Shown: piece after piece, positions 2,827 through 39,600 of the stretch
Layout of the letters: each line of letters begins with the position of its first letter
Position numbering within the stretch: the stretch's first letter is position 1
DNA from: a virus
IMG/VR virus record: IMGVR_UViG_3300024346_000156
Location: 1 to 42,275 of that record
Length of the DNA stretch: 42,275 nt
Reading direction: 5' to 3' (one strand)
Translations under genes and position numbers: made by a program
Notes under the pieces: model-generated
Told to the model about the DNA's origin: nothing
The model's input: only the letters and a program-made list of their open reading frames with translations
Database searches by the model: none

Positions 2827-2849
2827 TTATTTTGCTCCTAATGTAATTG

Positions 2850-2857
2850 TATTTATC
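2850..2857 (-). promoter_or_regulatory. T4-type late promoter, gp19
   Basis: GATAAATA on the minus strand overlapping the gp18 stop codon, 23 bases before the gp19 ATG, with AGGAG between. Confidence 0.65.
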
Positions 2858-5800: not shown

Positions 5801-6194
5801 CATCTGGATTTGCTGTTGGAACTTTTGTACGTGCTGTTAATTGACCTAAGTCAACATCTGCTCTTACAACCCATGCTCGGTTACTTACACCTAAATATGA
5901 GTAAGCTGCTTGCAAACCATATTCATTAAGTTCTGAACCATGTATTGCGTTATTACTTGCATCTGTTTGGAATGCTGGGTCTCCAAATGTTTCAGCTAGA
6001 TCACGTTGCGATGTTAGTAGGTACGGTTTACCAGCGTTAGCTGCTAATGTTCCTATTGCTGTGCCTGAGCCTGAAGCATTTAGTTTATTCTCTGCTGATG
6101 TAACAAAGATTACTGGGGTTGTGCCTGGTTCAGCGGGAGTATAAAAACTTTCGTCTACTACGCTAACTTGTACACCTGGTGATACTAATGCCAT
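2856..6194 (-). CDS. gp18: contractile tail sheath protein, T4 gp18-like, enlarged
   Basis: 1112 residues from the chosen start; T4 gp18 has 659. The N-terminus (ALVSPGVQVSVVDESFYTP) and the last 330 or so residues (GELVTLNNDRGL, YPWGFTSDN, VSYPWFAPAG, RINVARLVVYLR, SIEFIYIPLRL) are typical sheath blocks. The middle is expanded with Ser/Thr-rich segments and at least four W-rich units of the form G-x-x-W-x-x-(T/S)...W, probably surface-exposed decoration. An upstream in-frame ATG at 6239 would add 15 residues, but the ATG at 6194 has an AGGAGA ribosome site and gives the family N-terminus. A GGTAAATA late-promoter-like motif lies 36 bases upstream. The stop overlaps the gp19 promoter. Confidence 0.93.
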   Translation of the reverse strand: MALVSPGVQVSVVDESFYTPAEPGTTPVIFVTSAENKLNASGSGTAIGTLAANAGKPYLLTSQRDLAETFGDPAFQTDASNNAIHGSELNEYGLQAAYSYLGVSNRAWVVRADVDLGQLTARTKVPTANPDAGTYWLDTASSVYGIQIWNNSSVANSGQTFTNKIPLVLAAASQVTDYENGDYTPLASIGIVGDYAVVTVSTLNKIWYRSTTGWKELGSASWKGAIPTLATSKSGTLFGEDSAAAGADTFTLNSTVVTVTPGESITQVVATINAFNLPGVVAKVVNGEMELYNDGSTTQNITIATGSGDGTSLTFLGLTSGVYLIPALQVSKHTEIPDTFKTTSGNYNGRPTGSVWLKTTTPNLGARWRVKTWNSNTKLWDSVESPIYENSQTAILNLDKTGGGSNLVIGNLFTQSNVAGDASPKGTFKIYKRAAVGSTVITSSAVTLASFVNASSYEFNIESTSPGSASFSTMALITVTASATARETAIDLAAAITNADIPYVSADVDADSRIILTHSNGGEIRLTDSAGSTSSVLTGLGISPYNMTTKLGTRFVSDEPGVNNSLGNPLQYRVSNWETLKYTASNNSPTNTAAAGTLWYNSVVDEVDIMVNNGNTWVGYQDSTSPVYSAMSGTDANGPIVSASQPLVQSDGESLALGDIWIDTSDIENYPSIYRYTGTLVDTWVLVDNSDQTSENGIVFGDARYGATGATGNTAATIKTLLTSNYLDPDAPDPSLYPKGTLLFNTRRSGFNVKRYEVNHIDTSTVNARFSDQSMSGYAKDRWVTESGNQEDGSGTFGRHAQRKVVVQKLQAIVNSNDEIRNEDSRRFNLIACPGYPELIGELVTLNNDRGLTAFVVGDSPARLTPDATSLNEWATNARTVVEDNDDGLVTSDEYLGVFYPWGFTSDNAGNNVVVPPSHMMLRTIALSDQVSYPWFAPAGTRRGGVSNASSTGYINNEGEFVSTSLNEGQRDTLYSNNVNPITFITGSGLVNFGQKTRARGASSLDRINVARLVVYLRSQLSSLSKPYIFEPNDKITRDEIKQQVESLLLELVGQRALYDFLVVCDESNNTPSRIDRNELYIDIAIEPVKSIEFIYIPLRLKNTGEIAGVTG

Positions 6195-6229
6195 TTTCGT
6201 CTCCTGTGGATTGGGTATTCTGTTACATG

Positions 6230-6237
6230 TATTTACC
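6230..6237 (-). promoter_or_regulatory. late-promoter-like motif, gp18
   Basis: GGTAAATA on the minus strand, 35 bases before the gp18 ATG at 6194, followed by AGGAGA. It has two mismatches to TATAAATA. Confidence 0.45.
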
Positions 6238-6292
6238 ATTATCTAGTAAAAGGATACCGTAAACACCCTATAAAAAGGGACCGAAAAGGTAA

Positions 6293-6304: not shown

Positions 6305-6640
6305 ATGAGGCCATTATGCAAGTGCGGGCACCGTCCGGCAGCAATAAATTACAAAAAAGGACAAAGAACTTATTATCGCAAGCTTTGTGAAACTTGTTTG
6401 CGTAACGGAGTAGGTCATGGTATTCCAAAATGGAAACAAGCTGGGTATATTAAAAAACAAAATTGTGAGAAATGCGGATTTGAATCAAAGTACCCAGAAC
6501 AATTTAATGTATTTCACATAGACGGTTGCTTAGAAAATTGTCGCCCTAATAATTTAAAAACTATATGTGCTAACTGTCAGCGCACTCTTCAGAAAGAAGG
6601 AGTTAAGTGGAAACAAGGTGATTTAGTTCCTGACTTCTAA
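6305..6640 (+). CDS. small zinc-finger, HNH-endonuclease-like protein
   Basis: 111 residues with cysteine pairs at C5/C7, C28/C31, C54/C57 and C88/C91. The second half (C54-x2-C57, then H71-x-D73, N83, then C88-x2-C91) resembles the zinc-ribbon form of HNH nucleases. Whether it cleaves DNA is uncertain because the HNH core is short. Similar small proteins occur in marine T4-like phages. It is a lone plus-strand gene between the sheath gene and the kinase-like gene, and its last 18 bases overlap the end of the latter head-on. A GCTAAATA motif ends four bases before the ATG and no ribosome site is visible, so the transcript may be leaderless. It could be a homing-type insert or a DNA-binding factor. 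Confidence 0.6.
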   Translation: MRPLCKCGHRPAAINYKKGQRTYYRKLCETCLRNGVGHGIPKWKQAGYIKKQNCEKCGFESKYPEQFNVFHIDGCLENCRPNNLKTICANCQRTLQKEGVKWKQGDLVPDF

Positions 6641-22200: not shown

Positions 22201-22803
22201 TTACATCCTAACTTCAAAGTTAGCACTAATAGTTGAACGCAATTCTGTTGTTTTGTGTGCATTAACATAATGTGTTGCGCTTGAAGGAAAAAACAAAATA
22301 TCTCCTTCAGACAAATCAGGTTTTATTGTATCACCTAGAAACATTTGATTTTCACCAAACACTTCTTTAAGATGTGCCGGAAACACATCACAATTAGATT
22401 GAAAAAAAGAAAAATCTGCACTATCTTTTGGAAGTTTTAACATATATGCACAACTAATTAAGTTATTTCCTTGCTTATGATGATGCGCTTCTTGCGACTG
22501 ATTTTTCTCATATCTGTTTATCCAGGCACGAGAAACAATCTTTTGTATATTATCTTCAGTTACACCTATACTAGATGCATAGTGTCCCAATACTTCATAA
22601 ACTTCTTTAAAAAATAAATCCCAAGGAAATTCTTTATTTTTTTCATCATTGCCTATAGTTGTCCTACAGTCACAGTTCCACATGTCTGCATAATCAAAAT
22701 TATCTTTATTTTCTATAAAAGGCAAAAATGCTTTTAAAATATTTTCATGATTTGGCATTCTTGTTTTAAGTATTGGAACTCCGTATAGTATTTCAAAGTG
22801 CAT
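22201..22803 (-). CDS. 2-oxoglutarate/Fe(II)-dependent oxygenase
   Basis: 200 residues of the short phage 2OG-Fe(II) oxygenase type. The WINRYEKNQSQEAHHHKQG segment around 94-112 supplies the first metal histidine, FFPSSATHYV carries His178, and ELRSTISANF has Arg189, the expected 2-oxoglutarate ligand. Such enzymes hydroxylate or oxidise proteins, sugars, lipids or bases; the substrate is unknown here. It is the last gene of the operon with the carbamoyltransferase, whose end it overlaps by eleven bases. A hydroxyl group made by this enzyme could be the acceptor for carbamoylation, which is a hypothesis from context. Confidence 0.8.
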   Translation of the reverse strand: MHFEILYGVPILKTRMPNHENILKAFLPFIENKDNFDYADMWNCDCRTTIGNDEKNKEFPWDLFFKEVYEVLGHYASSIGVTEDNIQKIVSRAWINRYEKNQSQEAHHHKQGNNLISCAYMLKLPKDSADFSFFQSNCDVFPAHLKEVFGENQMFLGDTIKPDLSEGDILFFPSSATHYVNAHKTTELRSTISANFEVRM

Positions 22804-24595
22804 TTTTTACCTTTACTAATTTTCCGTATTCAGGCAAGTAAAGATATTCAATATCACAGTTATCTAATGTACGTATAGCATCATCTAACGTTTCAACTAA
22901 AGGTTCGCCACCTAAATTAAAACTTGTGTTAAAAATAATAGGACATCCTGTTTTTTCTTTGAATGCTTTAATAATATCATAGTAATGTGGATTCTGTTCG
23001 CGTGTAACTGTTTGAATACGACATGTTCCATCTATGTGTATAATTCCTGGAATCTTTTCTTCAATGCCAGGCTGGCAATTTACAGCATACATCATTGTAG
23101 GAGAACTTTCCATGCCACGTAAGTCAAACCATTCATGTACATCTTCTTCTAGTATACTACCTGCAAACGGACGGAAGTATTCTCTATTCTTTACACTGTT
23201 AACAAAATCTTTACCATTTGGATCTGTTGGATCATACATTATGCTTCTGTTGCCCAATGCACGTGGCCCGTTCTCTGAACGTCCTTGGAATAGTGTAACA
23301 ATATTTCTATCAGTCATTAACTTAACAATATCGTCTTGTGATACATCTGTAACTTCTGCATTGTATGTTTTTGCAGTTTCTAAGATTTGCTCATCAGTAT
23401 AAGTATGTACTGGACCTAGATATACATCATCTGCTCTACTTCTTACTGTAGTATCCTTTGTAACATTGTGATGCCAAAGCATTGCTGCACCCATTGCTGT
23501 ACCTGCATCATTACTAATAGGTTCGACATATATGTTAATACCTTCGTCTTTAAGAGCATCAAGGTAATGATAGTTAGCAACACAATTTAATCCATAGCCT
23601 CCACTAATAACAACATTCTTACATCCGCTTAATTCTACAGAATGTCTAATTAATTCTACAACAGCCTTTTGAGTTTCTGTCTGTACAGCATATGCCATAT
23701 TTCTTCTATTTTGTAGTAATGTAACATCTTCTCCGTCGTGATTATTTAATGTTGTATACGCATTAGCGTTTACTACTGCTCCGTTTGGATATCTTGGCAC
23801 AATTAAATTTCTATTAGTAGTTGGAATCGGTAGGTCGTTTTCGTCTAGTATATTTGGAAAAGAATTGTCAGACTCACCATAAGGAAATAATCCCATAGTT
23901 TTTCCAGCTTCGATTGCACTCCATCCGCAATACTCTGTTACTGCTTCGTATGCTTTAACAATTCCTGCTTTTTCACCTAAACTTACATTGAAGGTTGCAT
24001 TAGGTTCCCATTCGCCGCCGGCAAAATCTTTTATATATCCAGCAACTAACATATCTTTAGTATTCATTGTTTTATGTAAAGTTTTAATTTCATCCGGATA
24101 CTTACAACTATAAATGCTTTCAGTTTCCCATATTACCATTTCTTGGCCAGATACAGTTAATGGAAAAAATGTTCCTGCGCCGTCGACTATTAATGCAACT
24201 GCTTCTTCAAACCCACTGCGATAAAATGCTAAACCGGCGTGCATTTTATGATGAAACATTGCCATGTCAATAACTTGTGGATGAGGATCTGGAGAATAAT
24301 GTTCTTGAATTAGTCCAATTTTTCTTGCTAATCCTGTATATATATCCTCACCTGAATAATCTAGTTTGCCGGCTGTTTGCACAAGTCCAGTAGTATGTGA
24401 TACTGCTAGATAGTCTATTTTATCAGTATACTCTTTTATCTTTAGCATACTTGCTAGCGGACCGCCATCATATTTTCTTCGAGTTAGTCTCTCTTCTTCT
24501 ATTGAAAAAACAATCTCACCGTCTTTCATTAAGCAAACACCTGCATTGTGTCCTCTTGCTATACCTGCAATCCATAATGGTTTTTTATCGCTCAT
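22793..24595 (-). CDS. O-carbamoyltransferase, NodU/TobZ family
   Basis: 600 residues, full length for the family. The N-terminal ASKHA-type domain shows GHNAG at 15-19, EEERLTRRK at 33-41, HHKMHA at 115-120 and VDGAG at 137-141; later come SGGYGLNCVANY and the NDAGTAMGAA loop. The C-terminal YrdC-like part has RSENGPRALGNRS near 435 and NREYFRPFAGSI. These enzymes make carbamoyl-adenylate from carbamoyl phosphate and ATP and pass the carbamoyl group to a hydroxyl. Substrates in bacteria include Nod factors and antibiotics; related viral enzymes have been linked to carbamoylated hydroxymethylcytosine. Sugar-operon context favours a glycan, but DNA modification cannot be excluded. An AAGGAT site precedes the ATG. 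Confidence 0.92.
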   Translation of the reverse strand: MSDKKPLWIAGIARGHNAGVCLMKDGEIVFSIEEERLTRRKYDGGPLASMLKIKEYTDKIDYLAVSHTTGLVQTAGKLDYSGEDIYTGLARKIGLIQEHYSPDPHPQVIDMAMFHHKMHAGLAFYRSGFEEAVALIVDGAGTFFPLTVSGQEMVIWETESIYSCKYPDEIKTLHKTMNTKDMLVAGYIKDFAGGEWEPNATFNVSLGEKAGIVKAYEAVTEYCGWSAIEAGKTMGLFPYGESDNSFPNILDENDLPIPTTNRNLIVPRYPNGAVVNANAYTTLNNHDGEDVTLLQNRRNMAYAVQTETQKAVVELIRHSVELSGCKNVVISGGYGLNCVANYHYLDALKDEGINIYVEPISNDAGTAMGAAMLWHHNVTKDTTVRSRADDVYLGPVHTYTDEQILETAKTYNAEVTDVSQDDIVKLMTDRNIVTLFQGRSENGPRALGNRSIMYDPTDPNGKDFVNSVKNREYFRPFAGSILEEDVHEWFDLRGMESSPTMMYAVNCQPGIEEKIPGIIHIDGTCRIQTVTREQNPHYYDIIKAFKEKTGCPIIFNTSFNLGGEPLVETLDDAIRTLDNCDIEYLYLPEYGKLVKVKNAL

Positions 24596-26549: not shown

Positions 26550-27458
26550 TTATATAAAAGGATGTTCTGCAGGTATAACTTTAACTGCGGGTACTAATGC
26601 TATTTTTGACATATTAAATGTTGCTCCGGTCCCTGATGCGGAAGGTACATTAAATACATTATTATATGTACCAGCAGCAGGATGATAATTATAAGCTGTT
26701 GCATTACCTTTTGTTATTCCAGTGATTGCTCCAGTGTCAGCATGAACTGCACTAACTGTAACCATTATATCATCTGCTGGTGTATTATTTTTATACACAG
26801 TATCACTTATTAGCATACGATCGCCTACTACATAACCTGTTCCGGCAGTTGCAACAGTAATTTCCCAAGATGCACCCATTGTTACTGGAAAATCTCTAAG
26901 ATATTGTTTATACGCTACAACTTCATCGTATAAAGCACTAGGCATATCATCTGTTAATGTTCTGTCAGAGTTATTAAGTTTAGTATTTCTCCAGTGTATA
27001 TGATTATCCCAATTAACAGGCGCTTCTGCCCATGGTAATGGGTGTACAAGTATTCCATTAGCACGATCCCATTGTATTTCTTTAAGTTCATATGTATCTA
27101 TTGGTAATACAGGATCTGTTCTAACAAATGGTGTAGTTTGTCCTGGTATGTCTTCTGATATTGTTGGTAATCCAATTGGGTTAATACCGCCGTCTAACAT
27201 TGCGCATACAAGTACTAGAGAAGTAGTTGCATCTAACTCAATTGAATAAAAATCTTCATTTTCAATAATATCGTTAAACGTAAGGTGCTGTTCTTCACTA
27301 ATAGTTGCACCCGTAAATTTGTTAGTTAATGCACTAATTATGGCATATTTCTTTTGGGGTCCGCTATATGTTATAGTAACATTTGCATTATTCGCATTAG
27401 TTTGTGAATATATGTCGTCTGCTACGTAATATGTAAATTCTCTTGTAATTGTTGTCAT
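26550..27458 (-). CDS. tail-assembly-chaperone-like protein fused to a fibre repeat
   Basis: 302 residues. The N-terminus (TREFTYYVADDIY) resembles that of the 218-residue protein at 29026. Residues 157-191 carry the pattern R-N-x3-L...S-D...D-M-P...Y-x-x-x-L-R-D-F-P, typical of phage tail-fibre assembly chaperone domains (the type often called Phage_tail_APC). After this, residues 199-250 form one G-T-G-Y-x-V-G-D repeat unit of the sort found in the giant 2128-residue protein. The chain ends in a hydrophobic segment. Last gene of the fibre transcript; a strong terminator hairpin follows. A chaperone or adaptor for fibre tips is likely, but the added repeat suggests a structural role too. Confidence 0.65.
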   Translation of the reverse strand: MTTITREFTYYVADDIYSQTNANNANVTITYSGPQKKYAIISALTNKFTGATISEEQHLTFNDIIENEDFYSIELDATTSLVLVCAMLDGGINPIGLPTISEDIPGQTTPFVRTDPVLPIDTYELKEIQWDRANGILVHPLPWAEAPVNWDNHIHWRNTKLNNSDRTLTDDMPSALYDEVVAYKQYLRDFPVTMGASWEITVATAGTGYVVGDRMLISDTVYKNNTPADDIMVTVSAVHADTGAITGITKGNATAYNYHPAAGTYNNVFNVPSASGTGATFNMSKIALVPAVKVIPAEHPFI

Positions 27459-27471
27459 TATCTATTTCCTA

Positions 27472-28245
27472 TTAGTAGTATACGACATAAATCATGCCAC
27501 CTGCTCCTGGACTACCGCAGCACCATGCGCCGCCATAGACCTGTGCCGAAAGTCCGCCACCGCCTGGGAACATTCCCCAGCCTGCCGAGCCGCCTGCTTG
27601 GCAACATCCGCCATAACCCATTCTCATTCCGCCTCCAGTAAATGGAGCACTTGCTGAAGTTTGGTAGCCGTCATTGTAACAATGCTGTGTTGGATGAGCG
27701 CCACCAGTGACACCACCAAATACAATATCTGGAGAAACTCCACTTGTACCGTCTGATCTACCTCGGCAGCAATAGCAACTTGGGCAACAATCATAGCAAC
27801 CATTAAAATAGTTACAACGTAGTTCTACATGCACACATGGTCCGCCAGTTTGATTAAGTAACCACGTACCTGCACCGCCGCCTCCTTGTGAACAAACAAA
27901 TGAACAGCAACCGCATAATCCGCCGGCTTGTGTACTGTCTGTACAACAACCTGAACCTGCCGCGCAAATTCTAAACTGCTGTCCTGGAGTTACAGAGCAA
28001 CCTTTGACCATATAGCCGCCTGCGCCGCTGCCGCCACCTTGACGACAACATCTTGCGCCGCCGCCGCTGCCTCCGCCGCTCCACATTTCAAATACTGCAT
28101 AACTTGCACCTTGTGGCACTGTCCATTCGCAGCACCGTCCGCCATTGCCTTGTGATTGTGTACTAGTATTGTATACTACAAATTCTGCAGGGGTTAGTTC
28201 AGTGCCTTCGCCGTATCCAAATAATAAATCTCTTAAATTTGACAT
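27472..28245 (-). CDS. glycine/cysteine-rich putative fibre-tip adhesin (copy A)
   Basis: 257 residues with 25 cysteines and many poly-Gly runs. The frame W-T-V-P-x-G...F-E-M-W-x-G-G-G near residues 41-60 and the ending P-G-A-G-G-M-I-Y-V-V-Y-Y fit a glycine-rich beta-sandwich found at phage fibre tips and in other surface proteins. Cysteines often occur as CC pairs (RCC, GCC, DCC, YCC, WCC). It is a paralogue of the two proteins at 28258 and 29702, sharing the L-R-x-L-L start and the W-T-V-P block. T4-like gp38 adhesins are also Gly-rich but not Cys-rich, so receptor binding is an inference. It follows copy B with a 12-base gap. Confidence 0.68.
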   Translation of the reverse strand: MSNLRDLLFGYGEGTELTPAEFVVYNTSTQSQGNGGRCCEWTVPQGASYAVFEMWSGGGSGGGARCCRQGGGSGAGGYMVKGCSVTPGQQFRICAAGSGCCTDSTQAGGLCGCCSFVCSQGGGGAGTWLLNQTGGPCVHVELRCNYFNGCYDCCPSCYCCRGRSDGTSGVSPDIVFGGVTGGAHPTQHCYNDGYQTSASAPFTGGGMRMGYGGCCQAGGSAGWGMFPGGGGLSAQVYGGAWCCGSPGAGGMIYVVYY

Positions 28246-28257
28246 TAAATCTCTCTC

Positions 28258-29019
28258 TTATTCTGTAACAACTGGGTAGTATATTGTAATTAATCCGCCT
28301 GCGCCTGGTGCTCCGCAACCTGCGCGAGTACTATGCGATGTTGCACTTGCTCCACCGCCTCCTGGCCAGTGTGCAAAGCCGCCTGCATAACATCCTTGCT
28401 CATGGAAACAGTAGTGTCTAGTTATTCTATTTCCGCCGTTAGTAAATGGTGCTGAAGGCATTACTCCCCATGATGATACTGCACAGAATGAACTGCCTTT
28501 TGCTGCACCAGTTTGTCCGCAAATTCCCATAGTACCTGTCCAACTACCACACTGCATGTTTGGACATCCAGTGTATGCACAACCTTGTGAGAACTGGCAA
28601 CGAGTAAATCCTTGTCCGCCGCCTGATGCGCATACTTGTACTGCGCCTCCGCTTATTGAAACAAAACTTGGATTGCCTGAACAACCTGAACATTTTTGTT
28701 GACTACATACTGTTGAACCAGCTGCGCATAACGTATATTGTTCTCCGCCAGTGCCTGATAATCCTGTTACAAATTTTCTAGCATATGACCCGGAACCTCC
28801 CGGCCAACCTTGCATACAACAGCATGATCCTGCTCCGGAGCCACCGCCGCCCCATAGTTCTACAGCAAACCATTTTACGCCGTTTGGTACTGTCCATAAA
28901 CAGCAGCAACCGCCATTGTTATGAGCAGTTTTATTTGTGTTATATACATAAAACTGATCAAAGTTAACATTGCCGCCTCCGCCTTCTGAAATTTGTAATA
29001 GTGATCTTAAACCTGACAT
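28258..29019 (-). CDS. glycine/cysteine-rich putative fibre-tip adhesin (copy B)
   Basis: 253 residues with 20 cysteines. It shares the family frame: L-R-S-L-L at the start, N-N-G-G-C-C-C-L-W-T-V-P, then V-E-L-W-G-G-G-G, and an ending G-A-P-G-A-G-G-L-I-T-I-Y-Y. Two CCC triplets are present. The central third, between the C-A-A-G-S block and the S-A-P-F-T-N-G-G-N-R block, differs most from copies A and C and would be the expected variable receptor face. No signal peptide is present, as expected for a virion protein. It is flanked by a chaperone-like gene upstream and copy A downstream. Confidence 0.68.
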   Translation of the reverse strand: MSGLRSLLQISEGGGGNVNFDQFYVYNTNKTAHNNGGCCCLWTVPNGVKWFAVELWGGGGSGAGSCCCMQGWPGGSGSYARKFVTGLSGTGGEQYTLCAAGSTVCSQQKCSGCSGNPSFVSISGGAVQVCASGGGQGFTRCQFSQGCAYTGCPNMQCGSWTGTMGICGQTGAAKGSSFCAVSSWGVMPSAPFTNGGNRITRHYCFHEQGCYAGGFAHWPGGGGASATSHSTRAGCGAPGAGGLITIYYPVVTE

Positions 29020-29025
29020 TTTATA

Positions 29026-29682
29026 TTAATCCTCTGGTTGTTCTGGAAGTTGTACTTTCCAAGCAGCAATTTCAGAATCTGTTCCGTATCCGTACGCTGC
29101 CGGTAAATCTCTCAACAATGTTCTATAAGCAACCCACGGTGCTTTTACTGCGTCTGGCATGTCAGGACTAATTCTTCCATCACTTGCTCCTAGCATAACG
29201 TTTCTACTAGAAATTATCTGTTCCCATGTTATTCCGTCATCTATAAGTGGTAAAGCATTCCATGTGCTGTTATCTATATCGTAAACTAAATCATCTAAGT
29301 CATGTGTTTCGCTTAGTGTAGCTTTGTTATTATATAATACATTACCGTATCCTGATGGTAATGCTTCGGATATTTGTGTAACATCTGCATAAGTGACGCC
29401 ATCTTCTTTAAACATTGCTAATTGTTGTATGTCATCTTCAGCCGTTACTAGTACTCTAACAGTTCCTACCGGAACTGGAACTTCGCCGCCATCTTCTAGT
29501 GAAGTTAATGGCGGATACTGCCTAGATAGTGCTCCTGTTGTTTCATCTACAAAAACCCAAACTCTGTCTGGGCCTGTGTAACTTGCGTCTGCTGTTCTTG
29601 CGTCTGCTACAGTATTTCCAAATAATTCATCTGCAATATTGTAAGTAAACGCTTTTGTTATTGTTGTAATTGGTGTTGGCAT
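29026..29682 (-). CDS. tail-assembly-chaperone-like protein
   Basis: 218 residues. The N-terminal TKAFTYNIADELFGNT matches the start of the 302-residue protein at 26550. Residues 159-195 show the chaperone-like pattern R-N-x-x-L...S-D-G...P-D-M-P...W-x-x-Y-R-x-L-L-R-D-L-P, and the C-terminus W-K-V-Q-L-P-E-Q-P is also typical. Such proteins help fold or trimerise fibre tips in other tailed phages. It lies between Gly/Cys-rich copies B and C, six bases before B. The related 302-residue protein looks like a duplicated, extended version. Confidence 0.7.
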   Translation of the reverse strand: MPTPITTITKAFTYNIADELFGNTVADARTADASYTGPDRVWVFVDETTGALSRQYPPLTSLEDGGEVPVPVGTVRVLVTAEDDIQQLAMFKEDGVTYADVTQISEALPSGYGNVLYNNKATLSETHDLDDLVYDIDNSTWNALPLIDDGITWEQIISSRNVMLGASDGRISPDMPDAVKAPWVAYRTLLRDLPAAYGYGTDSEIAAWKVQLPEQPED

Positions 29683-29701
29683 TTTTTATTCCTCAATTCC
29701 T

Positions 29702-30448
29702 TTATGTATACGATACTTTTACAATTCCGTAGCCGCCATGTTGGCCTCGGCAAAAGCCGCCGCCGCATGCTCTACCTGGATTACCAGCGCCAGATGGTGA
29801 TGGACAACTTGTCATTAAGTCACAACCTGATCGTGTCATGTCTGTAGCACAAACTGCGCTAGATTTTCTGTCAGCGCCCCAGCCACCTGCATTCCACATA
29901 TAATGATGTTGATAACAATAGTGTGTTCTAATATTTTGACCGCCAGTGCCTTCTTGTACCATATCGCCTAAACCAGTGTCTGACATCAATGCCCAGCAGC
30001 AGTTATAACCGTCCATAAATCCGCCACGAGTCATTTGGCTACATCCGCCACGTCCTCCGATTGCGCATCCAATTGTAGATCCTGCACTAACGTCATAAGT
30101 ATAACTTGGAAAAGCCCGATTACCTATGCCACAGCAACAAGCAGTACAGCCTGTTCCAGCAGCACATATTCTGTATTGACATCCAGCAACAGTATCAACA
30201 TGCTTAACTGCATATGATCCGTTTGTTGGCATAGTACCAGGTGCTTCGCAACATCTAGATCCTTGACCATCGCCGCCTGCGCCCCACATTTCAAATGTAA
30301 CTCGAGTTGCGCCAGTTGGTACTGTCCATAAACAGCATCGTCCGCCGTTTAAGTCTTGCAAACCAGTATTTACAATGTAAAATATTCGATCTGGATTGCC
30401 AATCGATGCTGGTTCTAAATCTGATAGTAATGTGCGTAAACTTGGCAT
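29702..30448 (-). CDS. glycine/cysteine-rich putative fibre-tip adhesin (copy C)
   Basis: 248 residues with 20 cysteines. Family frame: L-R-T-L-L at the start, N-G-G-R-C-C-L-W-T-V-P, F-E-M-W-G-A-G-G, then Y-R-I-C-A-A-G-T-G-C, which closely matches copy A. The end (G-G-Y-G-I-V-K-V-S-Y) lacks the P-G-A-G-G motif seen in A and B, although G-A-G-N-P-G occurs nearby. It starts three bases after the 108-residue gene and is probably translated from the same late transcript. Confidence 0.68.
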   Translation of the reverse strand: MPSLRTLLSDLEPASIGNPDRIFYIVNTGLQDLNGGRCCLWTVPTGATRVTFEMWGAGGDGQGSRCCEAPGTMPTNGSYAVKHVDTVAGCQYRICAAGTGCTACCCGIGNRAFPSYTYDVSAGSTIGCAIGGRGGCSQMTRGGFMDGYNCCWALMSDTGLGDMVQEGTGGQNIRTHYCYQHHYMWNAGGWGADRKSSAVCATDMTRSGCDLMTSCPSPSGAGNPGRACGGGFCRGQHGGYGIVKVSYT

Positions 30449-30451
30449 GTG

Positions 30452-30778
30452 TTAACTTCCCGTTAGTACCCAACCGTGCGTTGCACCAGTGTAAACTAGT
30501 ACAGGCGCCGTGTTGTTAATATCTATTGTTAAATCTGACGATGCACCTTGTATAAGGGCTCCGTTTCTTCCTACTGTAATAGCATTTGCGCCTGCGTTTC
30601 CGCCTACGTCAACAATTTGTACAGTGTCGCCTGCTACTGCATCGGCTACTGGAGGTAGTGTAATTGTTATACTTCCTGCTGTGCAAATTACTCTGTCATT
30701 AGTTTTAGCTTGGTAACTAACCGCAGTTGTAACAGTAACAGTTGCATAACTTAAAGTGCTTGTGATGTATCTTCCCAT
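30452..30778 (-). CDS. small fibre-associated structural protein
   Basis: 108 residues with a pattern common in phage fibre and decoration modules: SITITLPPVADAVAGD, QIVDVGGNAGANAITV, DLTIDINN and a final Gly-Trp (H-G-W-V-L). This is probably a single small beta-rich domain that packs on a fibre. It has a CATAAATA late-type promoter 24 bases upstream and a purine-rich ribosome site (AAGGAAGAG). It heads the part of the transcript that carries the adhesin-like genes. Confidence 0.68.
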   Translation of the reverse strand: MGRYITSTLSYATVTVTTAVSYQAKTNDRVICTAGSITITLPPVADAVAGDTVQIVDVGGNAGANAITVGRNGALIQGASSDLTIDINNTAPVLVYTGATHGWVLTGS

Positions 30779-30802: not shown

Positions 30803-30810
30803 TATTTATG
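30803..30810 (-). promoter_or_regulatory. late-type promoter of the adhesin-like genes
   Basis: CATAAATA on the minus strand, 24 bases before the ATG at 30778, followed by AAGGAAGAG. It overlaps the stop region of the 105-residue gene. Confidence 0.5.
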
Positions 30811-31123
30811 CCGTTGTCTCAATTCCAAACGCTACACAACTTACGCTGGGTTGCGAGGAACGGACTACGATCTTCTGTGTTGCAGCTAGTACAATACCAG
30901 TGCGTTCTAATATGTTTTTTGGTAATAATTCAGTTTCAAACTCAATATATTCCCCTAATGTCGGTGTATCTAAGTCAGCAATTGCAACGTTGATAACAGT
31001 AGGTGCATTACCTCTGTTTACAATGTTTAAACTTGCCACGGTATAAATATCCGCCGGCGTAGTATAAACCGTTGTGTTACTGCCTGCTGCGATATCAGCT
31101 CCTGCTAATTTACCTGTGGCCAT
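30806..31123 (-). CDS. small beta-rich structural protein
   Basis: 105 residues, resembling the 109-residue protein at 41894 in length, position next to a giant fibre gene, and strand pattern (a hydrophobic N-terminal strand near residue 30, a central E-Y-I-E-F or similar strand, then L-L-P-K-N before a final strand). A GGAGAA ribosome site lies ten bases before the ATG. It follows the 1833-residue fibre after 15 bases. A GATAAATA sequence at 31213-31220, inside the end of the fibre gene, could give it an extra late promoter. Function unknown; probably a fibre accessory protein. Confidence 0.62.
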   Translation of the reverse strand: MATGKLAGADIAAGSNTTVYTTPADIYTVASLNIVNRGNAPTVINVAIADLDTPTLGEYIEFETELLPKNILERTGIVLAATQKIVVRSSQPSVSCVAFGIETTA

Positions 31124-31138
31124 TTTTTGTATTCTCCA

Positions 31139-34100
31139 TTATTGTTGTAAAAAGTAATTCATTGCTACTGGCGAACCACTAATGCCGCCAGTGTAATTAA
31201 CCTTCTGTAATATATTTATCTGATCGCCTGTCGTTGTTGTTATTTCCTGTCCGCTTATCAATACCGAGCCTGCTGTAATGCTGTTAACATTAAGTTCGCC
31301 TGCACCGCCACCAATTTGTGAAGCAATATAGGTTTTAATTGCTTTTTGTGTTGGAACAATATTATCACTATTAGCAGTAAACGTACCGTCTACACTAAAT
31401 TCAGTAATTGTTGCTCCTGTTCCACCAAGTTCAACTGCACCTAGCGACAATTCTTGTAGTCCACTAATATTAAACGCATCAGCATTTAGTGTAGCAGTAC
31501 CTGTCGATTGTTCAACGTTAAACAATCCGCCAACTCTAAAGTTACCGTCTTGGTCAGTAGTAGTGTAGAACACTCTTCCTCCACCGCCAACAAAAGTTTC
31601 TTTTGTTGGATCAACTGGATTGACCGGAATTCCTGGATAATTAGTATCTGCAAAATTACCAGTACCAATATCTAAGAAGTCATGTCCTGTTAGACGCACT
31701 TGCGAATATCTAATGCGTAGTGTTACTGCGTTATTATGTTCAACTGCTTCAGTAACAGTAATTTCTGGACTTAATTGTAACTGTGCATCAAATGGTCCAG
31801 TTCCAGTTAAATCTCTTACATTTACTAGTTTGTAATAGTTTCCCGGTATACCTGCAAATTCAATATTTGATCCAGGTAATGGTGCAGCACTTAAATTTGT
31901 AACTCTAACCAATGTTCCAGGCTGATAAAGATCAGCAAAACCGTCGCCGGAAATATCTGCACTAGCTGTGACAAATCCTGTACCTCTACTAGTCCATGTA
32001 GGCTGTTTTAGTACACCGTTACCAATTCTAACAGCATGCGGAACATCTACAGTATTGTTTGGATCTGTAAGTGTTAGTGTTGGAATTCCAGAATAACCAG
32101 TGCCCGGATCCCATATACTAATCATACTAATTGCACCATCGCTTACATATGCTCTGCCTTTGGCAGTACTTGCATATAAGCCGTCTCCTGGTGCAGTAAA
32201 CGTTACTCTTGGTTCAATGCTATAATTTGTAGTATCATTTAAAGTTGCTTCAATAGCAACTCCTGTAATATGATCCCACCCTGCACTGTCGTCACTCATT
32301 TTCTTAACTGTAGCAATTTTTGTACCGTTATTATATGTATCAATGTAAGCATATTGGCCTGCGCCAACACCTGCTGTTAAGTAAATTGCCATTCCTACAT
32401 ACTGACTACTTAATCTGCCATCTGTGTTAGATAATGTAATTTGTGTAGTATTGCCTTGTTGTGCAACGTTTTGCGTATCAAGATAGCCTTCGCCACCTTT
32501 GTTATCTGCAGGATCAGTAAGCCTAACTTCATATACACCGCCGTTTGAAACAACTGCATTATCAACTGCTGCTCCAAAGCCTTCGCCTGTTACTACAAAA
32601 TTTGTAGCATCGCCGATTGTACCAACTTCAAACGTATAATCCGCTGCGCCGCCTGCACCTAACAAACTGTCAGCAATTGTAATAACATCTCCTATTACAT
32701 GTCCGCTACCGCCTTTATTAATAACAACAGTCGGCAATCCAAACTCGTCAACAATAATAGTAAATGATTGACCTACTCCCGCGCCTGCTGATGCTCCGGT
32801 TACATTGTAGTATGTTCCTTTTGTTCTATCTCCATCTGCTGCACTATTATTTGTAACAGTAAGCAATGCATCAGTTGCTGTTGTATAGTCTTTTCCTGCA
32901 TTAGTATATTCGAGCGCTAATATATTATTACCGTCTGTAAATACACTATGTACAGTTGCATCAAAGTTTTGGTTAGTTACTGTACCAGTAATTGGAACTT
33001 CAGTAATATCAATACCTTCAGCAACTGTGCCAAATGTACCGTATGATGAGTTGCCGTTAGTAGCACGAATCTTACCACCGTTCTCTGCTAAGTAACCAAT
33101 GTGTCCATAGTATGAGAACACAGATACAAGTTCTGTTCTTCCTAAGTTAGTACACCAGCAACCAATTCCGTCACTGATAATTTGTGTAAAGTCGTTTGCA
33201 ACAATACTATCGTTGCCGCCTGCGTGTAAGTCACCGTCTACTTTTAGACCAATACACCCTGTACCAAATGTAGTTACGTTTTGTATGTATGGTGATTTGT
33301 TAATAATCCATGCAGCCGTGTGTGCTGGTCCCCAACCTGGATCTAAACTTACAAATGCGCCCGCTGTTGGACGCTTAGTTCCATATACGTTTGCAGTGCC
33401 AAGTGTACCTGCTAATCCGTTTACAGTACAATTACGTAAACCTGTTCCGTTACGCATATAGAACATGTCTTCTGTTGTTGATCCCATTACAGAGTTTGAA
33501 TAGTAACGTGCATATAACAATGATTTATAGTTACCTGTGTAAATTAAATCATATTTAATAGCATCGATATATCTGCTAATATCTCTTTCACATGCTGCAA
33601 CGTCATATGTATATGACGGATGTTGATCTGCAATATATGCAGTAACTTCTGCTTTTAAGAATTCTCTATTTGCTTCGAGCGCTTCTACAGCATACGTAAA
33701 GTCAGTTGTAGTATTTGGAGTATTTGATCCGTATGATACAGGAACAGTAGAATCTCCTGATGCACCATTCACGCCATAGTCTGCATAGTCACGTATTTGT
33801 GTCCAAAGTTCCGCTGCAAATGCGCCTGCGGCTGCTGAGCCTGCTGGCGATGTTGTAATTTGACTTAGTGCATTACCTGTTGTTTTAGTTACTGCACTAT
33901 TTGTAATAATGTCGCTTGCAATAACAGCCATTCTAGCAAGTGCATCTAATGTTTTTGGAGTATCTCCTGCTGCTACTAAAACACCTGCTGGACTAATACG
34001 TGTTGAACGCAATTCGTCACCTATAACTGCTGTGTTTTCTGGAACAATAATTGGAAGTATTTCGCTAAAGTTTCCTGTTTTAACAAATATACTACTTTGC

Positions 34101-36640
34101 GGTTTTACTTCTGCCGGAATACTATTAGCATTACCTGCTGTAATTGCACCAGTAACAATGCCTGTTAGTGTTGTTACAGTTGCAAGTGCATCTGCTTCTT
34201 CTTGGAATACAGCATTAGTATACTGATTTAAACTGCCTCGCACTGTTACTGGAGCAAGATTAGACATAATTGCATCTGCAAGAGTAACAATATATCCTAA
34301 ACCTGCTGCTGTTTGTGTAGCATTATCTGCAACATAAGTGTCGCCAGCCGCATTATAATATGATTTTGCTGCTTTTACCGAACGTTCATTGCCACCGTGT
34401 GTTAAGTCCCATATAACTGCATCAAGTACTTGTCCTGCATCTCTGCGGCAAGTTGCTTGTACATAAGAAAGACTTACTGCTGATGTTCCTGTGCCATCTG
34501 CTAGGGAAAATACTGCTCCGCCTTTAGTTGCTGATATAGTAAATGTAGTTGCGTTTAAAATAGCACTTACAAAGTATTCTGTATCTGCAACAAGGTTTCC
34601 AAAAGTAGTAGCAGCAAATTTAACTGCTGTTTCGCCTGCTACAAGCCAACTTGTATCTGTTATAGTAATTGCATTTGTTGACCCTGTAGTTGCTGTAGCA
34701 GTGTCTGCATATGTAGCATTAATATATTCAATTACTTCATCTTGTATAAAACTTCTATTGCGCTGCAAAAGATTTTTAGCGTTATAACGTATTGCGCCGT
34801 CTTGTACTTGCTCAGTAGCATAACGAATTGACTTCCAAGGACGGTCTAGCGTAACACCACGACTAGGTGCTGGTTCGTCAACACCGTTATTTGTTTCTAC
34901 ATAAAATACATTATTAATAGCACCAAAACTAGTCCATTCAGGTGCGTTTGCCGCATCATTAACTTTAAGAACCTGTCCTGCAGTTCCAACTCCTAATCTA
35001 ACTGCACCAGCGCCGCCATAATAAACAATGTCGCCTTGTGTAGTTAAGTTGCCTGATTCTGCACCAGCAACTAATAAATTCCAATTAACTCCGCCAGTAT
35101 CTTGATCAGGACGGTTAGTTAATGTAACCTCATCTGAAGTGTGAGCCGAAACACATATGTATGAGTTTACACCGTGTTGTATAGAGTCACCTGCATCATA
35201 GAAAGTTGCGTCTGTCCAAGTGCCTTTCCATTCAACACCTTCGTTTAAACGTTCCCAGTATAGTGGATTAGGCGGACGTTCACCTTCGTGCTTTAGAGTA
35301 CACAGATACGTATAACCGCCCAATCGTACAACGTCACCTTCAATAAATTCTCTCGTAGCACTATCATCTTCATAGTCGCCAATAAAACGGAAGCCAGTTG
35401 TAAATAAGTCCCATGCAGCAATATTATCACTAGGTTTTAGGCCAGCGTTGTTAGTTACTGCAACATAACTATAACCACCATAAGTTACAAAGTCACCAGG
35501 CTGATATGCTCTAACTGAATCCCAACTGTCTTCAAATTCTAAACCTTCAGTAAACTGTGCCCAATTAGATTCATCTGCTGCTAAGTTTACTGCACCACTT
35601 GTGTGTTGTGTTGTACAAATCCATGTGCCACCGCCGTATTTTACAACATCGTTAATTCTATAACGTGTGTTAATAGTGTGATCTGATCTATATTCAATGC
35701 CGTTATGTAAGTAATCCCACTTAGATTGATCTGCTTCTAGACCATCTGTTAAAGAAGCATTACTAGTATGACCTTCATTTGCAATATATAATGTGCCGCC
35801 GTAACGAACAATGTCATTTACTCTATAGCGTGTACCAACATTCCAGACGTCAGTCCAATAAAATCCTTCTGAGAAAATATTCCATTTACTTTGGTCGTTT
35901 TCTAATCCTAAACTAGCAGTGCCTGCTGATGTATGCGGAGTAATACAAATATATACAGTGCCATTATACTTTGCAATATCGTTTACTTTATATCTTGTAT
36001 CTATCAACCAGTCAGCTTTATAATCAAAACCTTCTGCATATAAATCCCATTTACTTTGTACTGTTGCAATATTAAATGTTAGGTTTTCTGCGCCGCCTGC
36101 GCCGAGGTTTGCATCAGTAATTGTTATAGTTTCATTGACAGCATAACTATCACCTGGTGTTACTATTGTAATTGTTGCTGCGCCAGTGCCGCTAACAACT
36201 ACGTCAACTACTAGCCCTTTGCCTACTCCACTAGTTGTAGTTGCTACACTTTCATATGTACCAGCAGTTCTTGATACATCTGCTGCCGAAATAGTACCTA
36301 CTGTTAATACATTTCCTTGTTCAAATTCTAAACCTAATGCAACAGATTGATCTGACCGATGAGCAGCATTAGCAATATACAGATATCCGCCATATTTTAC
36401 AATATCGTTTACCTTGTAGTATCTATCGTTTAACCATGCGCCTTTCCATACAACACCGTCTGAAATTTTATTCCAGTATGTTGCTTGTGCATCAGTAAAC
36501 AATGTGGGAGCAGTGTGTCCTGCGATACAAACATATGTGTTACCGCCGTTGCGTACAATATCATCTTTGTAGTAGACTGTGGCAGACGACCAATCGCCTT
36601 TCCATATAAATCTAATTCTACCTAATTTAAACTCTGCCAT
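31139..36640 (-). CDS. giant tail-fibre protein 1
   Basis: 1833 residues. Eight N-terminal repeats (residues 1 to about 530) of the form W-x-x-x-W...Y-x-x-x-D-I-V-x-Y-G-G-x-x-Y-(V/I)-C resemble carbohydrate-binding modules of chitinase type. Repeat 2 is interrupted at residues 109-194 by a foreign module. Two helical C-x-R-D...D-L-x-x-G-G-N modules follow. Then comes a beta-helix-like part with GAFVSLDPGWGP, FGTGCIGLKVDG and SYYGHIGYLAENGG. The C-terminus has SQVRLTGHDFLDIG and TDQDGNFRVGGLFNVEQ. The beta-helix and C-terminal parts match fibre protein 2 closely. Such proteins are standard in marine T4-like phages, probably long or side fibres. A GATAAATA promoter and GGAG site precede it. Confidence 0.85.
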   Translation of the reverse strand: MAEFKLGRIRFIWKGDWSSATVYYKDDIVRNGGNTYVCIAGHTAPTLFTDAQATYWNKISDGVVWKGAWLNDRYYKVNDIVKYGGYLYIANAAHRSDQSVALGLEFEQGNVLTVGTISAADVSRTAGTYESVATTTSGVGKGLVVDVVVSGTGAATITIVTPGDSYAVNETITITDANLGAGGAENLTFNIATVQSKWDLYAEGFDYKADWLIDTRYKVNDIAKYNGTVYICITPHTSAGTASLGLENDQSKWNIFSEGFYWTDVWNVGTRYRVNDIVRYGGTLYIANEGHTSNASLTDGLEADQSKWDYLHNGIEYRSDHTINTRYRINDVVKYGGGTWICTTQHTSGAVNLAADESNWAQFTEGLEFEDSWDSVRAYQPGDFVTYGGYSYVAVTNNAGLKPSDNIAAWDLFTTGFRFIGDYEDDSATREFIEGDVVRLGGYTYLCTLKHEGERPPNPLYWERLNEGVEWKGTWTDATFYDAGDSIQHGVNSYICVSAHTSDEVTLTNRPDQDTGGVNWNLLVAGAESGNLTTQGDIVYYGGAGAVRLGVGTAGQVLKVNDAANAPEWTSFGAINNVFYVETNNGVDEPAPSRGVTLDRPWKSIRYATEQVQDGAIRYNAKNLLQRNRSFIQDEVIEYINATYADTATATTGSTNAITITDTSWLVAGETAVKFAATTFGNLVADTEYFVSAILNATTFTISATKGGAVFSLADGTGTSAVSLSYVQATCRRDAGQVLDAVIWDLTHGGNERSVKAAKSYYNAAGDTYVADNATQTAAGLGYIVTLADAIMSNLAPVTVRGSLNQYTNAVFQEEADALATVTTLTGIVTGAITAGNANSIPAEVKPQSSIFVKTGNFSEILPIIVPENTAVIGDELRSTRISPAGVLVAAGDTPKTLDALARMAVIASDIITNSAVTKTTGNALSQITTSPAGSAAAGAFAAELWTQIRDYADYGVNGASGDSTVPVSYGSNTPNTTTDFTYAVEALEANREFLKAEVTAYIADQHPSYTYDVAACERDISRYIDAIKYDLIYTGNYKSLLYARYYSNSVMGSTTEDMFYMRNGTGLRNCTVNGLAGTLGTANVYGTKRPTAGAFVSLDPGWGPAHTAAWIINKSPYIQNVTTFGTGCIGLKVDGDLHAGGNDSIVANDFTQIISDGIGCWCTNLGRTELVSVFSYYGHIGYLAENGGKIRATNGNSSYGTFGTVAEGIDITEVPITGTVTNQNFDATVHSVFTDGNNILALEYTNAGKDYTTATDALLTVTNNSAADGDRTKGTYYNVTGASAGAGVGQSFTIIVDEFGLPTVVINKGGSGHVIGDVITIADSLLGAGGAADYTFEVGTIGDATNFVVTGEGFGAAVDNAVVSNGGVYEVRLTDPADNKGGEGYLDTQNVAQQGNTTQITLSNTDGRLSSQYVGMAIYLTAGVGAGQYAYIDTYNNGTKIATVKKMSDDSAGWDHITGVAIEATLNDTTNYSIEPRVTFTAPGDGLYASTAKGRAYVSDGAISMISIWDPGTGYSGIPTLTLTDPNNTVDVPHAVRIGNGVLKQPTWTSRGTGFVTASADISGDGFADLYQPGTLVRVTNLSAAPLPGSNIEFAGIPGNYYKLVNVRDLTGTGPFDAQLQLSPEITVTEAVEHNNAVTLRIRYSQVRLTGHDFLDIGTGNFADTNYPGIPVNPVDPTKETFVGGGGRVFYTTTDQDGNFRVGGLFNVEQSTGTATLNADAFNISGLQELSLGAVELGGTGATITEFSVDGTFTANSDNIVPTQKAIKTYIASQIGGGAGELNVNSITAGSVLISGQEITTTTGDQINILQKVNYTGGISGSPVAMNYFLQQ
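32610..32833 (-). repeat. second copy of the inserted module in giant fibre 1
   Basis: It encodes R-T-K-G-T-Y...G-x-G-x-G...G-H-V-I-G-D-V-I-T-I-A-D-S-L-L-G-A-G-G-A, matching the insert in repeat 2 unit for unit. Boundaries are approximate. Confidence 0.65.
35060..36640 (-). repeat. eight W/Y-rich repeats in giant fibre 1
   Basis: Units of about 55-60 residues with W...W...Y-x-x-x-D-I-V-x-Y-G-G-x-x-Y. Repeat 2 contains an 86-residue insertion. The pattern resembles small chitin- or cellulose-binding modules; the sugar bound is unknown. Confidence 0.75.
36059..36316 (-). repeat. 86-residue module inserted in repeat 2 of giant fibre 1
   Basis: Residues 109-194. The flanks read LGLEFEQ and QSKWD, which are contiguous in neighbouring repeats (LGLENDQSKW). 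The insert's R-T-x-G-T-Y ... L-G-A-G-G-A core recurs in the same protein near 32610-32830. Confidence 0.7.
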
Positions 36641-36684: not shown

Positions 36685-39600
36685 TTATATTCCGAATAAC
36701 TGGTGCGCTAACATGTCGCCATCTATGCCGCCAATTTGATGTACACTTACAGGTATGTTTATCTGTAAGCCTGATGTTGTTGTAAAGTTTGTACTCGACA
36801 CTTTGACTTGTCCTGCAATTAATGTGTTAGTCAGCGCATCTGCGCCACCACTACTAATTCTACTTTCTAAGTATGTCATAATTGCTGCCTGTGTCGGAAC
36901 AATGTTGTTTGAGTTTGCTACAAAAGTGCCGTCTTTACTAAATTCTTTAATAACAACAGCACTGCCGCCAACTTGTATTCCGCCTAATGATAATTCTGAT
37001 AGACCATCAAGTTCAAACAAATCAGCATTAATTGTTACTGTGCCGCTGGCTTGTTCAACTTGGAATAATTCACCAACTCTAAAGTTACCATCTTGGTCAG
37101 TACTTGTATAAAATACTCGACCGCCGCCATTGTCAACTGTTTCATTAAACGGCTGTCTTGGTGTGTTTGGATCTTCACCCTCAGTGTATAATTCAGGATA
37201 TCTTGTTGAGGTAACATTTCCTACACCAATATCTAAGAAGTCATGTCCTGTTAGACGGACTTGACTATATTGTTCACGTATAATTAATGTTTCTTCGTGA
37301 TTAGGCGAATTTTGATTTTTAATTGTTGGACTAATATTAGCAACCATTGTATGATTAGGTGCTGCTCCGGTTTGTGAAACAATTTTTGTTAATCTGTAAG
37401 TAACATCATCAATGCCATTAATAACAATATTTGCGCCAGGTCCTGGAATAAAACTAATATCTTTAAAACTTATTGTTTTACCTGTTTGGAATATGTCTGC
37501 AAATCCATCACCTGCCACAGTCATTGTTGCTGTAACATATCCTGCACCTCTGTTAGTAAATATAGGTTGTGCTAATACACCGCTTGCTATTCTTGGTTGA
37601 TCTAACCCGTCTACTGTTTTTTCAGGATCAACTACTAATACTCCCGGAACAGTTGTATAATTAGAACCCGGGTCGTACATGGTAAATGACTGTAGTCTAC
37701 TTGAACTTACATTAACTCTAGCAATTGCTCCTGCGCCAGATTGTATAGTTATTATTGAATTTCCAGCACTGCCAGTGCCGCCATCGCCGCGAATGAACCA
37801 TAAGCCTTCAGGTGTACTTGTTGATCCTGCAAGCCTATGCCCAGCATCATTTAATGTGTATACTGTACTATCTTCAGCAAACCATTGCCATGCCCAACCG
37901 TCTTTTGATTTTGCCATATAATTTGTTAAGGACGGGTTTGCGGATGTTGTAGCAATAAACTCTCCATGAGCATATATAATATCAGTTAAGCCAGATGCTG
38001 CTGGGAATGTTTCTAAATGTGTATCATCGGAATACCAAGTTACACCATCAAAACTATATGCAGCACTTTTATCACCAACTGCTACAAATCTGCCGTTGCC
38101 GTATGTAATATCAGTCCACGTAACTGCTGTGTCTAATACTCCAGTTTGTGTTGTCCAGTTCACACCTTCATTTACACTTGTTAGTGCAGTGCCATTGGTT
38201 TGTAACAATACCCACATACCGTTTCCGTATGCAACACCTATTATACTACCACCACCAGAAGCAATGCCGTTAATCGGTTGATTAGTAGAACCGTCTGGTG
38301 TAAATCTAGTAAGTCCACCGGTGCTTGATAATATACTAAGACCTGTTGATTGATTTGTTGCTAACCCTGTGTAAGCGAAGTTTTGAATCGCAAAGTTGGT
38401 CCATGTTGATGTTGATGTATCATAGTTGTAAACTACTGGACCGTTTTGGAAGAACATATTAGTCCCTGAAGATCCAGTTTCTCCAAAGCCCCATGCTGCA
38501 CCGCTTCCTAATGCTTCGCCTGCTGTAAACGTTGTGCCGTCAGTACTTATCGCTGTTTCTCCTATGCGATTTATTACTATATACGTTCCGTTTGAGTATT
38601 GAATTGCTGATGCCCATTTGCCGCTTTCTCCGTCTGTTAAAAAACCTGTAGGAAAAGTTTTTGTTGTGTCATTGGTTATAGTTACACCCGGATCGTCGAT
38701 TATTACTCTAGGCTCTAAACTATATCTAGTTGTGCCGTCTAATGTTGTTTCAATTGGTCTTCCGGGATATAAATTTTCCCAACCACTAGTATCATTATAT
38801 TCTTTAGATATAATAGCAATTTTAGTTAGAGCATCGTACCCAGTAATGTGTCCGTATTGACCTACACCTTTGCCTGAAACAATTACAATCCTCATACCTA
38901 TATATTTTTCAGGTGTTCCTGTGTCATCCGAAGCGGCTAATGTTATTGACGTAGTAGTTCCGCCTTGAGAATTGTTTAATAGATATTGATAATTTAATCC
39001 GCCCGGTGTACTAGAATCTGATGGGTCAATTAATCTAATTTGACTTATTGCATTGTTTCTAAGTTCATCGTATGCAACTGTAGCATTGATACCTGATCCG
39101 CTTACGACTCCGGTAGCACTAGTGTATGATTGTCCAGCATGACTATATCCTACTGCTATTAACTCATTACCGTCTGTATGTACAATTTCTACTTGCGCTT
39201 CTAGTGTACGGTTATCTATTTTTCCTGTTATTGGAGTTTCGTTTTCGTTGTACCCTTCAGCAACTGATCCGTATGTACCATAGGAATTGTTACCATTTGT
39301 TGCACGTAATATTCCGCCGTTTTCAGATAAGTAGCCAATGTGACAAAAGTACGTAAACACAGATACAAGTTCTGAACGGCCGCCGTTAAGTGCCCAGTAT
39401 CCAATACCGTCGCTTATTACTTGTGTAAAGTCGTTTGCAACAACTGACCTATTTCCGCCATTGTGTAGTGCTCCGTCAATTTTCATACCGATGCAACCTG
39501 TGCCGAATGTAGTTACGTTTTGTACGTAGCAAGATTTGTTAGTAATCCAAACACTACTATCGTCCGGCCCTGTTCCTGGATCAAGACTTACATATGCGCC

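Follow-up and report, generated by a model that had tools for sequence, protein, structure and literature searches.

What would three neighbouring phage genes be doing with proteins in which 8-10% of the residues are cysteine (Cys)? The question is raised by positions 27472-30448 of IMG/VR virus record IMGVR_UViG_3300024346_000156; "the window" below means the whole 42,275-nucleotide stretch that was analysed. Read along the minus strand, the genes run from copy C through copy B to copy A (lengths in amino acids, aa):

29702..30448, minus strand: copy C, position 1 of the triad; putative Cys-rich tip protein of Gly_rich_2 type, 248 aa, 20 Cys (8.1%), orthologous group p1.
28258..29019, minus strand: copy B, position 2; putative Cys-rich tip protein of Gly_rich_2 type, 253 aa, 20 Cys (7.9%), the copy that was modelled.
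27472..28245, minus strand: copy A, position 3; putative Cys-rich tip protein of Gly_rich_2 type, 257 aa, 25 Cys (9.7%), orthologous group p3.

The answer proposed here is that the triad encodes Cys-rich tail-fibre tips, probably hetero-oligomeric, whose cysteines are cross-linked after release from the cell. This reading as a whole is given a probability of about 0.5. Its parts differ in strength: the proteins are very likely to be fibre tips, and it is likely that their cysteines have a bonding role, either in disulphides or with metal.

A first-pass annotation described three Cys-rich paralogues with 20-25 Cys each and with CC runs; the open reading frames (ORFs), their composition and their pairwise identity bear this out. 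Copy A is 43% identical to copy B and 36% identical to copy C, and by sequence comparison the three are true paralogues. Glycine (Gly) makes up 24.1% of copy A, 21.3% of copy B and 18.1% of copy C. The other proteins of the window contain about 1% Cys (tail sheath 0.3%, long fibres 0.6%) and the likely genes range from 0 to 3.6%, the small ORF 6305-6640 excepted. Against a background of 1.2%, the chance of the observed Cys content is 2e-15 for copy A, 6e-11 for copy B and 4e-11 for copy C. CC pairs exceed those in shuffles of the same protein in every copy (A, 8 vs 2.3, p 0.0004; B, 4 vs 1.5, p 0.047; C, 5 vs 1.5, p 0.008). A fourth gene in the interval, 29026-29682, lies between copies C and B and encodes 0 Cys. 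The excepted small ORF is on the plus strand; its Cys content is 9% and it weakly matches an HNH endonuclease.

All three copies match PHROG 4205, a family of unknown function, over most of their length (E = 3e-14, 6e-29 and 2e-18 for A, B and C). A tblastn search of 50,697 phage records matched 21, each either a cyanomyovirus or a marine virus record assigned to Kyanoviridae; carriers include P-SSM2, P-SSM5, S-SSM7, S-SSM6a, S-CAM1, S-CAM3, Sf-FS3 and two single-cell records. With a nine-sequence alignment, 268 relatives were found by scanning viral contigs, and the best 80 of them were retained. Every one of the 235 homologous ORFs, which are distributed over 84 loci, contains 7.6-12.5% Cys. 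Although CC is in part selected for by the contig scan, the flanking paralogues, which did not pass through that selection, are just as Cys-rich. Pfam, PDB and phage searches using copy A alone gave no match, and PDB sequence matches to viral VEGF (E=0.2) were dismissed as chance.

The known homologues (PSSM2_304 and PSSM2_306, which are T4-GC 299 and 301; S-SSM7 114-116; Sf-FS3 97-99; the S-CAM1 and S-CAM3 triads) are annotated only as hypothetical, and the PHROG 4205 family was not found in the literature on Cys-rich cyanophage or phage tail-fibre proteins. Only two relatives were found in bacterial genomes, one triad in a metagenome-assembled genome (MAG) and one ordinary glycine-rich protein. 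The triad is in a 'Neomarinimicrobiota' MAG (L087; G005 contigs C57 and C77) and a jumbo tail sheath is on the same contigs; these are probably phage contigs that were binned with the MAG.

The description of the proteins as glycine-rich, adhesin-like fibre tips is well supported by a structural model, by Gly_rich_2 relatives and by the tail-fibre gene neighbourhood. The AlphaFold2 model of copy B, built from a 105-sequence alignment, has a predicted local distance difference test (pLDDT) score of 89.8 and a predicted template modelling (pTM) score of 0.86. Its top Foldseek matches in PDB are the Pam3 fibre (7ypx_A, E=1.3e-7), the mycobacteriophage Bxb1 tail tip (9d93_Qa, 1.2e-6) and the LTK TG domain (7nx1, 5e-4). 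The predicted fold of copy B is a TNF-like beta sandwich extended by a glycine-rich lattice. By Foldseek the Bxb1 tail tip (9D93) and the TG domains of LTK/ALK (7NX1, 7NX3 and 7LRZ) have the same fold. ALK and LTK are animal receptor kinases; to our knowledge, neither they nor the Bxb1 tail tip form a Cys-rich tripled set. Among viral models (BFVD), relatives from S-CAM3 and P-SSM2 rank at the top, and the matches include many phage proteins with glycine-rich domains, Syn9 gp38 among them.

The PF21722 Gly_rich_2 profile is matched by 15 of 25 family members. Two close relatives that were tested score 29.3 and 26.4 bits (positions 7-226 of 226), above the curated cut-off of 24.3 bits; copy B itself scores 19.1 bits, below this cut-off. 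By the relatives' profile and by fold, the domain is that of Gly_rich_2 proteins such as the 485-aa protein at 110 kb in P-SSM2. Unlike the triad, the ordinary phage Gly_rich_2 members examined contain 0.2-0.4% Cys: the 485-aa P-SSM2 protein has 2 Cys and the S-CAM1 protein, of at least 519 aa, has 1, both in phages that also carry the Cys-rich family. The remark in the first-pass annotation that phage proteins are rarely this Cys-rich is therefore true within the fold.

Pam3 gp24 is the closest solved structure to copy B. It is a host-recognition tail fibre with a TNF-like and glycine-rich domain, forms a homotrimer, has 39% Gly in the tip domain and is accompanied by the chaperone gp25 (PDB 7YPX/7YFW; PMC9608196). 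In both phages a fibre gene lies beside a chaperone or chaperone-like gene. Tips of the gp24 type trimerise via an N-terminal helix bundle and dock on the tail; the N-terminal helix in the copy B model is short (residues 4-8) and lies inside the conserved MSxLRxLL start. In contrast to the single gene and homotrimer of Pam3, the window has three paralogues with 8-10% Cys; the Pam3 paper nowhere mentions cysteine or disulphides (PMC9608196).

The alignments indicate that the cysteines of the family are conserved and are not a product of drift, since Cys content is high in all 235 homologues and seven columns are common to the three paralogue groups. These columns (39, 40, 67, 68, 98, 179 and 204, copy B numbering) hold Cys in 80% or more of the sequences of every group. 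There are also copy-specific columns: 229 in copy 1 (97%), 167 in copy 2 (81%) and 147 in copy 3 (97%). Co-occurrence of cysteines is strongest for columns 121-128, 39-40, 151-229, 67-141 and 40-105; because pairs that are independent on the tree are too few for a test, it is not used as proof of pairing.

Exactly three copies are present in 73 of the 84 loci; nine others are truncated where the contig or locus ends. In searches of whole records P-SSM2 had two copies, and S-SSM7, Sf-FS3, S-CAM1, S-CAM3 and four large contigs had three each. The order copy 1, chaperone-like gene, copy 2, copy 3 is found in 67 of 72 three-copy loci, and the copies are contiguous in five. In the main group of the tree (101 rows) each position forms a single orthologous group, with 2 changes, the minimum. 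Copies from S-SSM7/Sf-FS3 and from locus L084 branch by phage group and not by position, and a tree that unites all first copies in a single clade is rejected (approximately unbiased test, p=4e-10); on this tree, they tripled independently of the main group. Because distinct copies are kept 1:1:1 and are orthologous by position, the triad most likely works either as a hetero-oligomer (an A:B:C trimer) or as three fixed, non-interchangeable tips. A hetero-oligomer as the working unit is tentative, at a little short of even odds.

The genes around the triad belong to a tail-fibre module:

36685..41499, minus strand: second long tail fibre of 1604 aa with six CBM_5_12 modules.
31139..36640, minus strand: long tail fibre of 1833 aa with four CBM_5_12 modules; phrog_9851 tail fiber 2e-201.
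30806..31123, minus strand: small tail-fibre-related protein, 105 aa; phrog_11338 tail fiber 4e-10.
30452..30778, minus strand: small tail-fibre-related protein of 108 aa, encoded upstream of the triad; phrog_31104 5e-12 and several tail-fibre PHROGs.
29026..29682, minus strand: chaperone-like protein, 218 aa, no Cys; phrog_9740 2e-21, phrog_4912 tail fiber assembly 2e-7, PF16778 26.0 bits (cut-off 26.6 bits).
26550..27458, minus strand: second chaperone-like protein, 302 aa, after copy A, a paralogue of the 29026-29682 product; phrog_9740 4e-20, PF16778 25.4 bits, below the cut-off.
22793..24595, minus strand: Nol-like carbamoyltransferase, 600 aa, in the downstream part of the shared module; 61% identical to S-SSM7.

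The CBM_5_12 modules of the two long fibres are of a chitin-binding type. In annotated carrier phages, a long tail-fibre gene is followed by the family genes and then by a conserved gene and one for a Nol-like carbamoyltransferase. The proteins of P-SSM2, S-SSM7, S-CAM1, S-CAM3 and Sf-FS3 are direct homologues of the triad with 8-12% Cys, and they lie in this same module with the carbamoyltransferase downstream. Genes resembling 2-oxoglutarate (2OG)-Fe(II) oxygenases or prolyl-4-hydroxylases adjoin the glycine-rich module in the window (22201-22803) and in Sf-FS3 (L006 11192-11836 and 16012-16531). P-SSM2, S-CAM1 and S-CAM3 have a gene annotated as cysteine dioxygenase on the downstream side of the module (L008 15092-15448, L009 14785-15138 and L011 14789-15145); none was noticed in the window.

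The tail tube and 1127-aa sheath of the window (2200-6239) are nearest to those of jumbo phages, namely Sinorhizobium phage Phosso, Atu_ph07 and PA5oct (about 42-47%). A cyanophage origin, which the fibre module had led us to suspect, was rejected for the backbone on this basis. The same sheath type is present in 25 of 34 triad records (46-64%), one of them on a contig of 267,783 bases. In four loci (L013, L014, L060 and L069) the sheath gene is interrupted in frame by one or two stop codons (TAG, TAA), possibly due to recoding, an insertion or sequencing error. The 31139..36640 fibre matches Pelagibacter phage Mosig and cyanophages. Since a jumbo-type tube and sheath are combined with an S-SSM7-like carbamoyltransferase and a cyanophage- or Mosig-like fibre, the window is a fragment of an uncultured jumbo phage lineage whose host-recognition module is common with cyanomyoviruses (Kyanoviridae). 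The cyanophage carriers of PHROG 4205 differ in being T4-like cyanomyoviruses, some with independently tripled copies (S-SSM7/Sf-FS3) and one with two (P-SSM2). Sharing of host-recognition modules between unrelated phages is already known (PMC10579305). A sea-water setting for the window phage is plausible.

These features suggest how the triad may work. Its products would be receptor-binding tips of tail fibres with the TNF-like and glycine-rich fold (Gly_rich_2, Pam3 gp24-type), in which conserved cysteines would stand in for part of the glycine lattice and for loop bases. Folding is probably aided by the chaperone-like protein whose gene separates copies C and B; the tips would then be seated on the ends of the long fibres encoded directly upstream; the 31139..36640 fibre is a possible carrier. 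The tips could form an A:B:C trimer, built in the manner of TNF-like trimers, or remain three fixed tips. The cysteines would most likely make the tip rigid through a disulphide network within and between chains, formed once the virion has left the reducing cell.

Disulphides formed after release are favoured by analogy with Agrobacterium phage Milano, in which disulphides link the tube, sheath, baseplate and fibre attachments (PMC10811340). As the main role of the cysteines they are the most likely single one, at somewhat under an even chance. Milano is a precedent for disulphide-crosslinked virion proteins, fibres included. Structural proteins of Milano average 2.1% Cys (PMC10811340), whereas the Cys of the window are gathered in the tip-like proteins, whose share is about four times that of Milano, and the sheath and long fibres have 0.3-0.6%.

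Other roles for the cysteines of the same tips have to be considered. Together with neighbouring histidine (His) they might bind zinc, iron or copper, thereby ordering the glycine-rich loops and perhaps touching the receptor. His is enriched 1.5-fold among residues adjoining Cys while lysine and acidic residues are depleted, Cys counts are often odd, and fibre tips that carry metal are known from T4-like phages. However, in 114 non-redundant members compared with shuffles it is CC that is enriched (2.53-fold), with CxC at 1.27-fold and CxxC, the spacing of zinc sites, at only 1.10-fold; significant PDB matches of the copy B model include no metal-protein fold. Metal binding as the main role is unlikely, and a metal protein of zinc-finger or metallothionein type is not favoured because CxxC and CxC are not clearly enriched. 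It is improbable that the cysteines have no bonding role and are free thiols, small residues tolerated for Gly in a polyglycine lattice. Cys does alternate with Gly at columns 104, 147, 151 and 167, and the family means of 19.3% Gly and 9.6% Cys add up to 28.9%, inside the 24-42% Gly of ordinary domains; but the best-conserved Cys columns (39, 40, 66, 67, 130 and 141) are almost never Gly, their rare substitutes being Arg, Ser, Tyr, Leu, Pro and Val, and a neutral swap is unlikely to hold Cys at 7.6-12.5% across 235 relatives. The probability that disulphides and metal leave over goes to cysteines in a mixed or free state.

Two further explanations concern the proteins rather than their cysteines. 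Each copy might form its own homotrimer for a different receptor or fibre, the triplet being a host-range set. This is consistent with homotrimeric Pam3 gp24 (PMC9608196), with the identity of only about 36-46% between copies and with the two copies that suffice in P-SSM2-type phages. Such a set would be expected to be variable and shuffled, whereas number and order are near-fixed and the main group has one orthologous group per position; separate homotrimers are doubtful. Alternatively, the proteins might be secreted or intracellular, outside the virion and merely adjoining fibre genes. Neither proteomic proof nor an experiment on any family member was found, but the fold, the chaperone-like neighbour and the fixed site after long tail-fibre genes in the loci examined make this very improbable.

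Several results weigh against hetero-oligomeric, cross-linked tips as proposed here. Cys counts per chain are even in 48 members and odd in 66, and counts per triad are even in 23 and odd in 20. Disulphides that are all intrachain are unsupported, since even counts are not in excess per chain or per triad; not all Cys are in intrachain pairs, and inter-chain bonds, some free thiols or metal therefore remain. The model of the 29026-29682 product is confident (pLDDT 94.9) and its C-terminal third is mostly two long helices; a PDB fold search gave no match, so that the gp25/TfaMu fold is not confirmed and, unlike Pam3 gp25, this protein is called a chaperone by sequence only. Two copies, both longer, are found only in P-SSM2 (36 Cys each) and in the single-cell record L012. 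Virion proteomics of a carrier phage was not found in the literature, the published S-SM1, S-PM2 and Syn9 proteomes being those of phages outside the set of carriers identified here.

A more specific form of the proposal is rather unlikely in its entirety. Here the three paralogues would build a TNF-like receptor-binding head, a viral counterpart of the C1q heterotrimer (A:B:C); its glycine-rich tips would be locked by a dense, redox-sensitive network of cysteines within and between chains, which would be set on exit from the cell and might be unlocked at the host surface.

PHROG 4205, frequent in aquatic viral contigs yet annotated as hypothetical, now gains a fold and a likely role. The glycine-rich fibre-tip fold has a Cys-rich branch, of which no mention was found in the literature. 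The host-recognition module to which the family belongs is common to jumbo phages and T4-like cyanophages. The three-copy rule has been kept for a long time and was reached independently in a second phage group, which makes hetero-oligomeric phage tips directly testable; isolated carriers exist (P-SSM2, S-SSM7, S-CAM1 and S-CAM3). The near-universal presence of three distinct copies suggests a three-part, possibly cross-linked gripping head that seems not to have been described before.

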